A DNA stretch of 64,000 nucleotides from positions 1 through 64,000 of the forward strand of contig CAMBYG010000003.1 of the NCBI GenBank assembly GCA_945872085.1, written 5' to 3'. Of the stretch, positions 22,048-27,702 are shown piece after piece. The position numbers and the translations under genes were made by a program. Source of the stretch: Chitinophaga pinensis. GTDB taxonomy: Bacteria; Bacteroidota; Bacteroidia; Chitinophagales; Chitinophagaceae. The stretch's first letter is position 1. Every line of letters begins with the position of its first letter. The notes under the pieces were generated by a model. The model was not told the origin of the DNA, did not search any database, and saw only the letters and a program-made list of their open reading frames with translations.

Positions 22048-23106
22048 TTAAGATTTGCTTTTATAAACTTGCAATACACCTACGCAAGCTTGTATTTTTT
22101 TAATCTGTTCTTCGCGTGATAATTTTCTAAGCTTATTAATTTTAGGGAGATTTACATGCACTTCGCTAGGCAAAGAGGCTATTAATCGCATTAATGCCGA
22201 TGAACTTACCGCATAAGTAGTACCATCTAACTCTGTATCTTTTCCAGCAATAATTCCAATGACAGCTCCTTTAGCATCTATGATCGGCGAACCGCTTTGT
22301 CCGGGTTGAGCCATCATTTCTAAACGATACTGCATAGTATCACCTTCGAAACCGTTTTTACCAGATATGTATCCTTCTTTATACACAATTTCTTCGTCGG
22401 GGTAACCAAGGGTAAAAATAGCAGCACCGATATTTATTTTAGACTTTGCAAAAGCGTAAGGCACATCCACTGTTTGTTTTGATGCTTTTAATACTTTTAA
22501 TAAGGCCAAATCACTTGCCTTGTCATAAGCCACTACAATTGCCTTGTGGTATTTTCCAGATTGGGTTTGTAAGTATAAAGAATCAGCACCTTCAGTAACG
22601 TGATAATTGGTTATAAAATAACCTTCTTTACTGATAGCAAATGCGGTACCTGTATAAGAACCCGGCTGCAAATCGCTCTGGTCATTGCTTTGTAGGGTGT
22701 TAAATAATTGACGTTGAGATTTTTTAATCGTTTCTATCTCCCGGCGCAACATGCTATATTGTTTACTAGGCTTTTCTTGCTTTACTATGAATAAGGTAAG
22801 CAATGATGTAAGTAAGGCAACCGAAGCAGCCATTGCAGCTACTTTCCATTGATTGATAGACAAATGAATAATTTTGGAAAGCTTATTGGTGTTGTTTGCT
22901 TTCTTCGATGATAGCGCTTTTAGTTGTGCAGCAAATGCATCTTGTTTGTGCATAGCTTGGAGGTTTGCTATAAATGCAACTTGATCATCGAAAGCTATTT
23001 TAAATGCTTCGTCATTTTGTAATCGATTATTTAAATAGATTAACTCATCCGATGATAATTCATTAGATGCATATAATTCCGACCATTCCCAAATATTCTT
23101 TTCCAT
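22048..23106 (-). CDS. membrane-anchored trypsin-like serine protease with anti-sigma-like N-terminus
   Basis: A 352-residue protein. Residues 1-85 are cytoplasmic and resemble the N-terminus of Bacteroidota anti-sigma proteins (ELYASNELSSDELIYLNNRL, then LQNDEAFKIAFDDQ). One transmembrane helix follows (about 88-108), then a short coiled linker and an S1C/HtrA-like protease domain (about 150-312). The catalytic triad is His169 (ITNYHVTEGAD), Asp199 (DKASDLALLKV) and Ser271 (PGQSGSPII). No PDZ domain is present. It lies 12 bases after the ECF sigma gene and must be co-transcribed. The arrangement suggests an anti-sigma factor and a stress-sensing protease in one chain; this is inference. Confidence 0.8.
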   Translation of the reverse strand: MEKNIWEWSELYASNELSSDELIYLNNRLQNDEAFKIAFDDQVAFIANLQAMHKQDAFAAQLKALSSKKANNTNKLSKIIHLSINQWKVAAMAASVALLTSLLTLFIVKQEKPSKQYSMLRREIETIKKSQRQLFNTLQSNDQSDLQPGSYTGTAFAISKEGYFITNYHVTEGADSLYLQTQSGKYHKAIVVAYDKASDLALLKVLKASKQTVDVPYAFAKSKINIGAAIFTLGYPDEEIVYKEGYISGKNGFEGDTMQYRLEMMAQPGQSGSPIIDAKGAVIGIIAGKDTELDGTTYAVSSSALMRLIASLPSEVHVNLPKINKLRKLSREEQIKKIQACVGVLQVYKSKS

Positions 23107-23118
23107 GTAATTTTGTAT

Positions 23119-23676
23119 TTATAGGTCCGAGTAAATTTTCTTTAAACGAGCCAAGCATTTATATTTTTGAGATTTTGCATTTTCCGCATTGGTATAACCA
23201 AAAGCATGAGCAATCTCTTGCATTGTCATTTCTTTTTTATAGAAGTTATTTAATAGTTTAGCACAAGGATCGCCTAATTGCTGCATTGCGTTTCTTAACT
23301 TTAAAAACTGTTGCTCTTTCTCTGCAAAAAATTCCATGTCGCTATCTAAGGCACTTTCAACATACACCATCAATTGCTCTGTATCTGTTTGCAAAATTGG
23401 TGAGCGCCGGTTTTTGTCAAATCGTTTCAGCCATAAATTATTGCTAATCGCATATAAATAGGTACCAATTTTACACGTAAACCTAAACGCTTCGTCTTGT
23501 GCTTTATTATACAAAATGAGCATAGCTTCTTGATAGATATCTTCTGCATCTTCCTGCGCTGCACCTTTAGATTTAAGTGCATTGATAACAATAGCCGCAT
23601 TAGCTTCGTATACCAACTTGGTAGCCCATTCTTTACCGTCTGCTAAAGCTGCTATAATTTCAAACTCTGTATTCAA
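23119..23676 (-). CDS. ECF-type RNA polymerase sigma factor
   Basis: A 185-residue sigma-70 family protein. The region 2-like segment has GAAQEDAEDIYQEAMLILYN, and TYLYAISNNLWLKRFDKNRR lies before the linker. The region 4-like helix-turn-helix reads KKEMTMQEIAHAFGYTNAEN with KSQKYKCLARLKK. The start codon is TTG at 23676: a TAG closes the frame three codons upstream and no early in-frame ATG exists. It heads a two-gene unit with the protease/anti-sigma protein. The regulon is unknown. Confidence 0.88.
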   Translation of the reverse strand: MNTEFEIIAALADGKEWATKLVYEANAAIVINALKSKGAAQEDAEDIYQEAMLILYNKAQDEAFRFTCKIGTYLYAISNNLWLKRFDKNRRSPILQTDTEQLMVYVESALDSDMEFFAEKEQQFLKLRNAMQQLGDPCAKLLNNFYKKEMTMQEIAHAFGYTNAENAKSQKYKCLARLKKIYSDL

Positions 23677-23899
23677 GCTCTTCTATATTTAATTAATACT
23701 AAAAACGATTAAAAGTAACCAAAACTCTTTAAAAAATAAATTAGCCTAGTAGTTCGTAATCTTATCAAATTACTAAATATATTATTTATCAGTGTTTTAA
23801 ATGTTAAAATAAAATAAATATAAATATTTTCTTTTATAATTGGGTTACCTTTTATTCTTTTGCGAATAAATTTAAAATTAACTTTTAAAAACAAACATT

Positions 23900-24079
23900 A
23901 TGAAATTTGTAAAATTCGCGACTTTTGCTCTTGCATTAGGTATGTTTGCTGCTTCTTGCGGTGAAACTAAAACTGAAGAAACTCCAGTAGATACAGCTGC
24001 TATGGCTCCTGCTGTTGATACAACTGCTGCTCCAGCTGTTGATACAACTGCTGCTGTTGATACTGCAGCTACTAAATAA
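23900..24079 (+). CDS. small lipoprotein with VDTTAA repeats
   Basis: A 59-residue protein from ATG 23900. The signal peptide ends in a lipobox (LGMFAASC, Cys20). The mature part is only Thr, Ala, Val, Asp, Pro and Glu, with repeated PAVDTTAA units and a nearly exact DNA repeat between about 24010 and 24067. It looks like a disordered surface or periplasmic lipoprotein, a type abundant in Chitinophagaceae. It lies divergent from the ECF sigma gene across about 220 bases of AT-rich DNA and is followed by a terminator. Function unknown. Confidence 0.72.
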   Translation: MKFVKFATFALALGMFAASCGETKTEETPVDTAAMAPAVDTTAAPAVDTTAAVDTAATK

Positions 24080-24096
24080 TTTATTTAGTTGTTATG

Positions 24097-24124
24097 ATAA
24101 AGCCACTCCTAGGAGTGGCTTTAT
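24097..24124. terminator. bidirectional terminator between the small lipoprotein gene and rsmI
   Basis: A perfect 28-base palindrome with core AAAGCCACTCCTAGGAGTGG is flanked by AT-rich tails on both sides. It lies 17 bases after the lipoprotein stop and 21 bases before the rsmI stop. Confidence 0.82.
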
Positions 24125-24145
24125 TTATTTATAGTATATATGCTA

Positions 24146-25891: not shown

Positions 25892-25929
25892 AATAAAAAT
25901 GGGATAGTTTAAACTATCCCATTTTTATT
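25892..25929 (-). terminator. terminator after the orphan response regulator
   Basis: A perfect palindrome with core GGGATAGTTTAAACTATCCC (25901-25920) and A/T-run flanks. It directly follows the stop codon of the response regulator at 25929 and separates it from the pssA promoter. Confidence 0.82.
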
Positions 25930-26630
25930 TATTGTGGCACTACTAATCGGAATCCATTTCCATGAATATTGACTATTTCTACACTTGAATCTTCTTTTAA
26001 ATATTTTCTCAATTTTGCAATATAAACATCCATACTTCTACCATTAAAGTAGGTATCGCTACCCCATATGCGTTTCAATGCGTTTTCACGAAGTAATAAG
26101 TCGTTTTTATACTCGGCCAACATCAGTAACAATTCATTTTCTTTTGGCGATAAGGTAACGGAGTTATCGTTAATTGTTAAAATGCGCAATTTGCTATTAA
26201 AATGATAATTGCCTATCACAAATTCAAATTGACCATGCTGTTTTTCTTGTAATTCTTGGTTTCTTTTTAAAACAGCTTTTATTTTATGTAATAATACTTC
26301 ACTATCAAAAGGCTTTGTAATATAATCGTCGGCACCTAATTTATAACCCGTAAGGATATCTTCTTTTAAACTCTTTGCAGATAAGAAAAACAATGGCACT
26401 TCAGGGTCTACATTTCTAATTTCTTCAGCTAATGCAAAACCATCCATGTTAGGCATCATTACATCCAATAAACAAATATCAAAGCGCTCTTTTCTATAAG
26501 CAGCTAAACCTAGTATACCATCTCTACAAAGCTCTACTACAAAATCATTAAGCTCTAAATAGTTTTTTAAGACTTGTCCGAAGTTGGTATCATCTTCTAC
26601 CAACAACACTTTATTTTTTTCTTTCTCCAT
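25929..26630 (-). CDS. OmpR/PhoB-family response regulator (orphan)
   Basis: A 233-residue protein. The receiver domain has VEDD at 11-14, phosphoacceptor Asp56 in CLLDVMMPNMDG, and the conserved Lys in DDYITKPFD. The C-terminal winged helix shows VTLSPKENELLLMLAEYKND and GRSMDVYIAKLRKYL. The sequence is close in type to RprY-like regulators of Bacteroidota. No histidine kinase gene is adjacent on either side. It has its own terminator. Confidence 0.93.
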   Translation of the reverse strand: MEKEKNKVLLVEDDTNFGQVLKNYLELNDFVVELCRDGILGLAAYRKERFDICLLDVMMPNMDGFALAEEIRNVDPEVPLFFLSAKSLKEDILTGYKLGADDYITKPFDSEVLLHKIKAVLKRNQELQEKQHGQFEFVIGNYHFNSKLRILTINDNSVTLSPKENELLLMLAEYKNDLLLRENALKRIWGSDTYFNGRSMDVYIAKLRKYLKEDSSVEIVNIHGNGFRLVVPQ

Positions 26631-26691
26631 GATTACGTTTGTTTATTAAGCTAAATTACATACATAAATGACTTATGCATGCAAGATTTTG

Positions 26692-27702
26692 TTAAAACCG
26701 CGGGCAGCCATATTCACTTCTATTGCCATTAGGAGCATGATATAAGCCTTGATAAACCAATCCCAGCTCAAAAGCGCCCATACTTCTATTAGCAGGTGTA
26801 AGTGCCGACATGGTAACGTCGTAACTAACAACAAATTTTAGTTTAGCAATTTGGTATCCTACAACTGCTATAACCGATTCGTTTAAGCGGTAATAGCAAC
26901 CTAAAATCAACTCGCTTTTGGTGTCATTGTCGCCACTTAAATAGGTTTGCGTTAAAAACCCAGCTAATAATTCAGAAGCTGATTTTTGGCTAGCAAAATA
27001 TAAAGACGGCGTTAAAATTACTCTAGATGTAGGCTGATACACCCACTCTATTTGTGCATTGGGGCGAATACCCAATTGATTATTATCATTATTAAAACTT
27101 TCTACAGGTCGATTGATATGCGAAAGGCCTAAACCAATTTTCAAGTACGAATTATCTGCAGGCATATAAGCATAATTAATTCCAGCACACAAGTCAAAAT
27201 AATCTGTTTTTATAACGCCATTTTTTTCTCCATTACTATTGAGTGGATTGAACGAATATCCGTCCCATTGGGTATCAAAAGATAATCGATTAAAATCCAT
27301 ATTGCGTTGCACAAAACCTCCACTCGCTCCAAATGACAACATGTTGAAATCGTTGAGCACAATATGATAAGCTAATGAAAATTGGGTTTTATTCAAAACC
27401 AAATTGCCATCTCCAGCTTTATCATTAAAATTGGCTATACCTAATCCTATCCAATTGGTAGACAATTTATTTCGCAATAATTGTAGGTCTGCATAAAAAG
27501 AAGTTGTTTTATAAGGCACGGGCACACTTGTCCATTGCGTTCTATAATTAACTCCAATTCGATAGTCGTCTTCGGGCATCAAAGCTGCATTAGCTGGATT
27601 TACCAATAATGGCGCATTATAAAACTGCGAAAAATGCAAACCTTGTGCATAAGCACCTGCTATATAACAGCAACTTAAAATAAAAAGTAAAGTCTTTTTC
27701 AT
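26692..27702 (-). CDS. type IX secretion system PorP/SprF-family outer-membrane protein
   Basis: A 336-residue protein with a signal peptide (cleavage after GAYAQ). It then shows LHFSQFYNAPLLVNPANAAL, the hallmark N-terminus of the PorP/SprF family. The rest alternates beta strands consistent with an outer-membrane barrel. In known cases PorP/SprF proteins partner specific large T9SS substrates and tether or export them. The gene is 8 bases after the giant type B sorting-domain gene, which is therefore the likely substrate partner. Confidence 0.92.
   Translation of the reverse strand: MKKTLLFILSCCYIAGAYAQGLHFSQFYNAPLLVNPANAALMPEDDYRIGVNYRTQWTSVPVPYKTTSFYADLQLLRNKLSTNWIGLGIANFNDKAGDGNLVLNKTQFSLAYHIVLNDFNMLSFGASGGFVQRNMDFNRLSFDTQWDGYSFNPLNSNGEKNGVIKTDYFDLCAGINYAYMPADNSYLKIGLGLSHINRPVESFNNDNNQLGIRPNAQIEWVYQPTSRVILTPSLYFASQKSASELLAGFLTQTYLSGDNDTKSELILGCYYRLNESVIAVVGYQIAKLKFVVSYDVTMSALTPANRSMGAFELGLVYQGLYHAPNGNRSEYGCPRF

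Follow-up and report, generated by a model that had tools for sequence, protein, structure and literature searches.

An ECF σ-factor gene in the window, the whole 64,000-nucleotide stretch of Chitinophaga pinensis DNA analyzed here, is followed by a gene whose product carries, in one chain, a putative anti-σ domain, one transmembrane helix, and an outer trypsin-like protease domain. We propose that this protein is a membrane anti-σ factor whose extracytoplasmic sensor is a DegS-like protease that acts as its own site-1 protease, a reading to which we assign a probability of roughly 0.48. The computed features, namely the architecture, an invariant catalytic triad, a modular N-terminal domain, obligate pairing with the σ gene, a shared promoter, and a lipoprotein target, are supported; we infer σ binding, an N-in topology, the signal, and every cleavage step.

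Architecture of the operon and of the fusion protein

The original prediction paired an ECF σ gene with a fusion gene, and both open reading frames are found where it placed them, on the minus strand. The features of the pair are as follows.

23119–23676, minus strand: ECF σ-factor gene (185 aa, TTG start; Sigma70_r2 and TIGR02937 above cut-off)
22048–23106, minus strand: gene for the anti-σ/one transmembrane helix/trypsin-like protease fusion (352 aa; domain search, homologue conservation)
22873–23106, minus strand: residues 1–78, modular N-terminal domain, putative anti-σ (HMM matches, weak NCBIfam matches, joint model)
22783–22842, minus strand: transmembrane helix, residues ~89–108, with invariant Ala93–Ala94 (hydropathy; conservation in 53/53)
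22681–22767, minus strand: helical stalk, residues ~114–142, between membrane and protease (predicted helix, model residues 305–329)
22207–22659, minus strand: HtrA/DegS-type protease domain, residues 150–300, triad His169/Asp199/Ser271 (Pfam, triad, structure match)
22051–22134, minus strand: conserved C-terminal tail, residues 325–352, a helix and terminal strand in place of a PDZ domain (conservation, model)

The product of 23119–23676 is an ECF σ-factor, a short protein containing regions 2 and 4. It matches Sigma70_r2 in Pfam with 31.0 bits (cut-off 24) and TIGR02937 in NCBIfam with 57.0 bits (cut-off 42.9), and its region 4 gives a weak match (E 0.18). The fusion open reading frame starts 12 nt after the σ stop codon and shares its reading frame, such that readthrough of the TAA codon would yield one continuous chain.

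The predicted order of the second protein, an N-terminal segment, one transmembrane helix, and an HtrA-type protease, was recovered by the Trypsin_2 match, by hydropathy, and by N-terminal comparison. Hydropathy over the whole 352-residue chain detects no second hydrophobic segment, and Leu120, Lys128, and Gln131 of the stalk are conserved among homologues. Charges flanking the transmembrane helix do not favor an N-in orientation in the window protein and favor it in 39/59 homologues. The Trypsin_2 match covers residues 153–285 (Pfam; E 4.6e-22, 79.8 bits against a cut-off of 27.6). The triad described in the original prediction is indeed intact: all 59 homologues retain His169, Asp199, and Ser271, as well as Gly269 and Gly272. 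The predicted protease domain superimposes on the solved domains of HtrA1, DegS, and DegP with Z scores of 19–21 (VIA-align). Because the triad is invariant and the fold is DegS-like, the outer domain is likely an active protease. The claimed lack of a PDZ domain also holds, with no Pfam match to PDZ in the fusion protein at E ≤ 1; only ~50 residues extend past the protease domain, and in the predicted structure these form a helix and a strand. In NCBIfam the protease domain matches MarP best, with a score (75.8 of 250 bits) far under the family cut-off, and MarP also appears among its Foldseek matches.

Pairing with the σ gene and the N-terminal domain

The source genome (a 1.9-Mb assembly) has one copy of the fusion gene and one further HtrA-like protease, which matches the protease part only. 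With a match threshold of 1e-25, orthologues of the fusion protein are present in 185 of 195 genomes of the same family and in 99 of 101 genera. In a sample drawn evenly from the class, 60 of 295 genomes contain a match at 1e-20, 43 of which (including the genome studied here) appear full-length as judged by frame length and score, the remainder matching the protease part only. The suggestion that this design is unusual thus stands relative to Escherichia coli, but not within this Bacteroidota family, where it is nearly universal.

Of 59 loci, 57 have a σ gene immediately before the fusion gene and on its strand, with a gap of −58 to +94 nt; contig edges truncate the remaining two. The same domain order therefore accompanies a σ gene at each of the 57 loci open to judgment, far more often than chance would give. 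Ten family genomes, several of them incomplete assemblies, lack the protease, and these also contain no σ match at 1e-12 except for one weak and different sequence (6e-14). Protease homologues without a σ gene had been named as potential counter-evidence, and none of the fusion architecture was found, although some proteins related through the trypsin domain alone have no σ gene beside them. Trypsin-domain proteins of 424–460 aa in families f84 and f77 were rejected as further examples, having no σ neighbor and a different architecture. In another class of the phylum, four loci (L115–L118) encode lipoprotein-like proteins of 450–460 aa that carry a related trypsin-like domain at the C terminus and likewise have no σ neighbor.

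The N-terminal segment of the window protein alone has no match in Pfam, and neither Pfam nor NCBIfam gives an anti-σ match for the protein; since the segment alone is unmatched, its anti-σ-like status rests on comparison. An HMM built solely from the N termini (first 75 residues) of the protease family matches 19 of 33 open reading frames located downstream of related σ genes, with E values of 1.7e-14 to 4e-5, compared with a best E of 0.006 among reversed sequences. Indeed, in Bacteroidota families that lack the protease, related σ genes are followed by proteins with one transmembrane helix and a matching start. The outer parts of seven such downstream proteins were scanned: most contain TPR, one resembles sulfatase-modifying enzymes (E 2.3e-30), and two contain nothing recognizable. 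The combination of one N-terminal domain, one σ clade, and interchangeable outer domains makes an anti-σ role well supported. Among the homologues themselves, anti-σ matches in NCBIfam are weak and all lie under the curated cut-offs; the protease-family member L050 matches an NCBIfam anti-σ model at 4.4e-5, under cut-off, and homologue L042 matches zf-HC2 at 0.0046, also under the curated cut-off. When PDB sequences were searched with the N-terminal profile, all of the matches listed were to nuclear receptors (best E 0.007), which we took as chance.

The σ-factor and the fusion protein were also folded jointly as the readthrough chain, using an alignment partly paired by other genomes in which the two genes are in frame. 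In the joint model of σ with residues 1–78 (pLDDT 90.5, pTM 0.85), the N-terminal part is all-helical. A pTM of 0.85 would be hard to reach unless the N-terminal domain were packed against σ; however, because a five-residue linker forces proximity and the model was judged by pLDDT and pTM, we treat it as supportive only. The σ part of the model lies 9–11 Å overall from anti-σ–bound σ-factors (E. coli σE–RseA, AlgU–MucA, and BldN–RsbN), compared with mostly 15–22 Å, a worse superposition, for polymerase-bound ECF σ. Fold searches with the model of σ plus the N terminus listed σ matches only, and those with the fused model listed protease matches. In homologue comparisons the N-terminal segment diverges faster than σ or the protease domain; the distance correlations (σ/protease, 0.82; σ/N terminus, 0.62) were set aside, as shared ancestry and noise leave them uninformative. 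Collectively, the modular homology and the confident joint model back the original assignment of the N terminus, and residues 1–78 in all probability constitute an anti-σ domain.

One genome (G195) encodes twelve relatives of the σ-factor (L066, L076, L080, L082, L084, L086, and L088–L093). Most are followed by a protein with one transmembrane helix, the same N-terminal domain, and varied outer domains, one of them sulfatase-modifying-enzyme-like, and the set resembles an expanded family of membrane switches.

A shared promoter and a divergent lipoprotein gene

Upstream of the operon, four further features were identified.

23694–23720, minus strand: promoter-like site of the σ–protease operon, GGTTAC-N15-GTATTA (pattern scan, conserved upstream of σ)
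23843–23869, plus strand: divergent promoter-like site, GGTTAC-N15-GAATAA (pattern scan)
23900–24079, plus strand: small lipoprotein gene (59 aa, lipobox FAASC, Ala/Pro/Thr/Asp-rich tail)
24096–24125, plus strand: terminator-like hairpin of 13 pairs after the lipoprotein gene (consensus match only)

GGTTAC occurs in 55 of 56 regions upstream of σ, against 1.0 expected, and in 49 of the 56 it is followed by a 15-nt spacer and an NNATWA −10 element. A form with a 14- to 16-nt spacer and NWATWA is found in 41 of 56 regions, compared with 0.24 in shuffles. The consensus upstream of σ is GGGTTAC-N15-GTATTAA-like, and the whole window contains exactly two such sites against 0.04 expected. The second of these, the divergent site, faces the 59-aa lipoprotein gene. 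A scan for the σ-70 consensus returned fewer sites than in shuffles. A divergent gene for a small low-complexity lipoprotein is present in 46 of the 56 loci with enough upstream sequence, preceded by the motif in 29. In four genomes (G336, G394, G305, and G366) tandem pairs of similar small lipoprotein genes stand beside the module (L140, L141, L172, and L173), each gene with its own copy of the motif.

Of the 47 genomes that have the module, 38 contain strict-pattern sites, as do 3 of the 30 that lack it (Fisher p 6e-10; one genome present in both lists was counted once); the reversed pattern gave three sites across all 77 genomes. Because several of the 30 module-less genomes contain more distant σ relatives, the contrast is specific to this σ-factor. 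Each of the 47 module genomes has zero to four sites, most of which belong to the module itself; this suggests a very small regulon, although these counts are a lower bound because the scan used exact patterns. Of the sites inspected away from the module, those in five genomes precede lipoprotein genes (L123, L135, L142, L167, and L175) and those in four precede a gene for a 96-aa AMPK1_CBM (glycogen-binding type) protein (L137, L147, L156, and L165), for which a search of the window's own genome found no homologue. One of these four, L147, is a strict match in G133, a family genome where the module was not found, and in G079, another family genome without a detected module, a strict match precedes a transposase-like open reading frame (L148); these two matches reflect either incomplete assembly or chance. 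A third promoter-like site in the source genome (C69, 14-nt spacer, beside nusA) has no plausible gene behind it and is probably chance. Elsewhere in the window, at 25929–27702, a response-regulator gene adjoins a gene for a 336-aa protein whose sequence, inspected by eye, looks like PorP/SprF of type IX secretion.

Taken together, these patterns indicate an autoregulated module with a very small, lipoprotein-centered regulon. The shared promoter and the divergent gene, which go beyond the earlier reading of this DNA, are the best clue to the target of the system, and the lipoprotein could be a protective product, a feedback ligand, or both.

Model for σ release and relation to known systems

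In the proposed mechanism, residues 1–78 would keep the ECF σ-factor at the inner membrane at rest. An envelope signal, for which a peptide, a misfolded protein, and a mislocalized lipoprotein are candidates, would turn on the protease domain, which would cut its own stalk or that of a neighbor. An RseP-like M50 protease might next cut the Ala-rich transmembrane helix, and cytoplasmic proteolysis would then free σ. Free σ would transcribe both the operon that encodes it and the divergent lipoprotein gene from the GGGTTAC-N15-GTATTAA-like promoters, such that activation would yield more σ, inhibitor, and lipoprotein. The genome contains one PF02163 match over cut-off (E 5.8e-44), and the existence of this RseP-like protease makes self-cleavage plausible; cleavage in cis or in trans nevertheless has somewhat less than even odds. 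Activation as in DegS cannot hold unchanged here, because the protein lacks a PDZ domain. The proposed mechanism draws on the triad and fold, the adjacency and co-absence of the two genes, the recurring N-terminal domain, the joint model, the promoter, and the RseP-like protease; the N terminus without a library match, the sub-cut-off anti-σ matches, the linker of the joint model, the lack of a PDZ domain, the transmembrane charges, and the failure to find a cleavage site speak against it.

The main alternative, which is itself a serious though tentative possibility, is that the targets bound or cut by the HtrA-like domain are other proteins of the envelope, making the domain a sensor and quality-control effector, and that σ is freed by allostery or after a first cut by another protease. 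The anti-σ data (57/57 adjacency, HMM matches, and joint model) fit this arrangement equally well, and in related neighbors TPR or other non-protease domains fill the same outer position, so σ release in this clade needs no built-in protease. In contrast, the invariance of the triad in all 59 homologues and the one-chain design, which suggests that catalysis and release are coupled, point toward self-cleavage, although the former is compatible with allostery too and the latter falls short of proof. It is improbable that the protease domain is mainly an output, shed to the periplasm as an effector when another protease cuts the stalk and σ is freed: an autoregulated operon would make more protease upon activation and a helical stalk does separate membrane and protease, but our analysis of the fusion protein identified no cleavage site or motif, and nothing specific points to shedding. 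Equally improbable is that the N-terminal segment does not bind σ and that the genes are merely co-transcribed, with σ controlled otherwise; the missing Pfam match and fast divergence of the segment would suit this, but the same domain adjoins related σ genes with unrelated C termini, is absent together with σ, and gives a confident joint model.

In its fullest form, the self-cleavage reading is of a single chain that is both anti-σ factor and site-1 protease, senses the envelope, cuts itself or a neighbor in an HtrA-like trimer, and frees an autoregulated σ-factor. The main product of that σ-factor would be a tiny lipoprotein of low complexity, with possible feedback on the protease. We put this version forward tentatively. 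If the protease does relieve its own anti-σ domain, a σE cascade of several proteins would have been condensed by fusion, providing a good minimal model. The locus offers a compact and widespread example in which promoter and target are both defined and a single catalytic residue can be mutated. Its single-chain design is conserved almost throughout one Bacteroidota family and extends to several more families of the class. The nature of the target suggests that these bacteria have a response dedicated to lipoproteins. In a published survey, a class I anti-σ domain was found near the ECF gene in 6% of cases in Bacteroidota, compared with 32% on average (PMC7406223); the difference fits divergent domains such as residues 1–78 escaping detection. 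We found no description in the open-access literature of a fusion of an anti-σ domain with a protease, which may already be listed in the 2021 ECF reclassification.

Comparison with the E. coli σE/RseA/DegS/RseP pathway (AlgU/MucA/AlgW in Pseudomonas aeruginosa) reveals shared elements: an ECF σ-factor, a membrane anti-σ factor, a DegS-like protease fold, a presumably autoregulated operon, and an RseP-like protease in the genome. However, here anti-σ domain and protease are in one chain in 59/59 homologues, there is no PDZ domain, and the predicted regulon is very small and lipoprotein-centered. We thus do not class the protein as DegS, as it has no PDZ domain, nor the system as a σE pathway, as its parts are not separate proteins. 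Likewise, it has the trypsin-like fold and triad of the HtrA/DegS family (S1C) but not its C-terminal PDZ domain. MarP (Rv3671c of Mycobacterium tuberculosis) is similarly a membrane-anchored trypsin-like protease, but has several transmembrane helices and is not known to carry an anti-σ domain. Anti-σ chains are also processed during signaling in FecR/FoxR, RsgI, and IutY, which to our knowledge carry no HtrA-type protease domain. These are self-processing or fused anti-σ factors, FecR/FoxR undergoing autoproteolysis (PMC7593790, PMC10202637, PMC12203970). IutY, like the fusion protein, joins two pathway functions in one chain, but these are σ and anti-σ, and the initial cleavage of IutY is ascribed to another protein, the protease Prc (PMC7593790). 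Within Bacteroidota, Phocaeicola M0N98_03760 (PMC9308784) and Dma1/Dma2 (PMC13088901) are anti-σ factors whose outer part is an outer-membrane β-barrel and spans the periplasm. Like the pair described here, they are ECF/membrane anti-σ pairs with an unusual, envelope-tied outer part, but that part is a barrel in those proteins, whereas here it is a protease.
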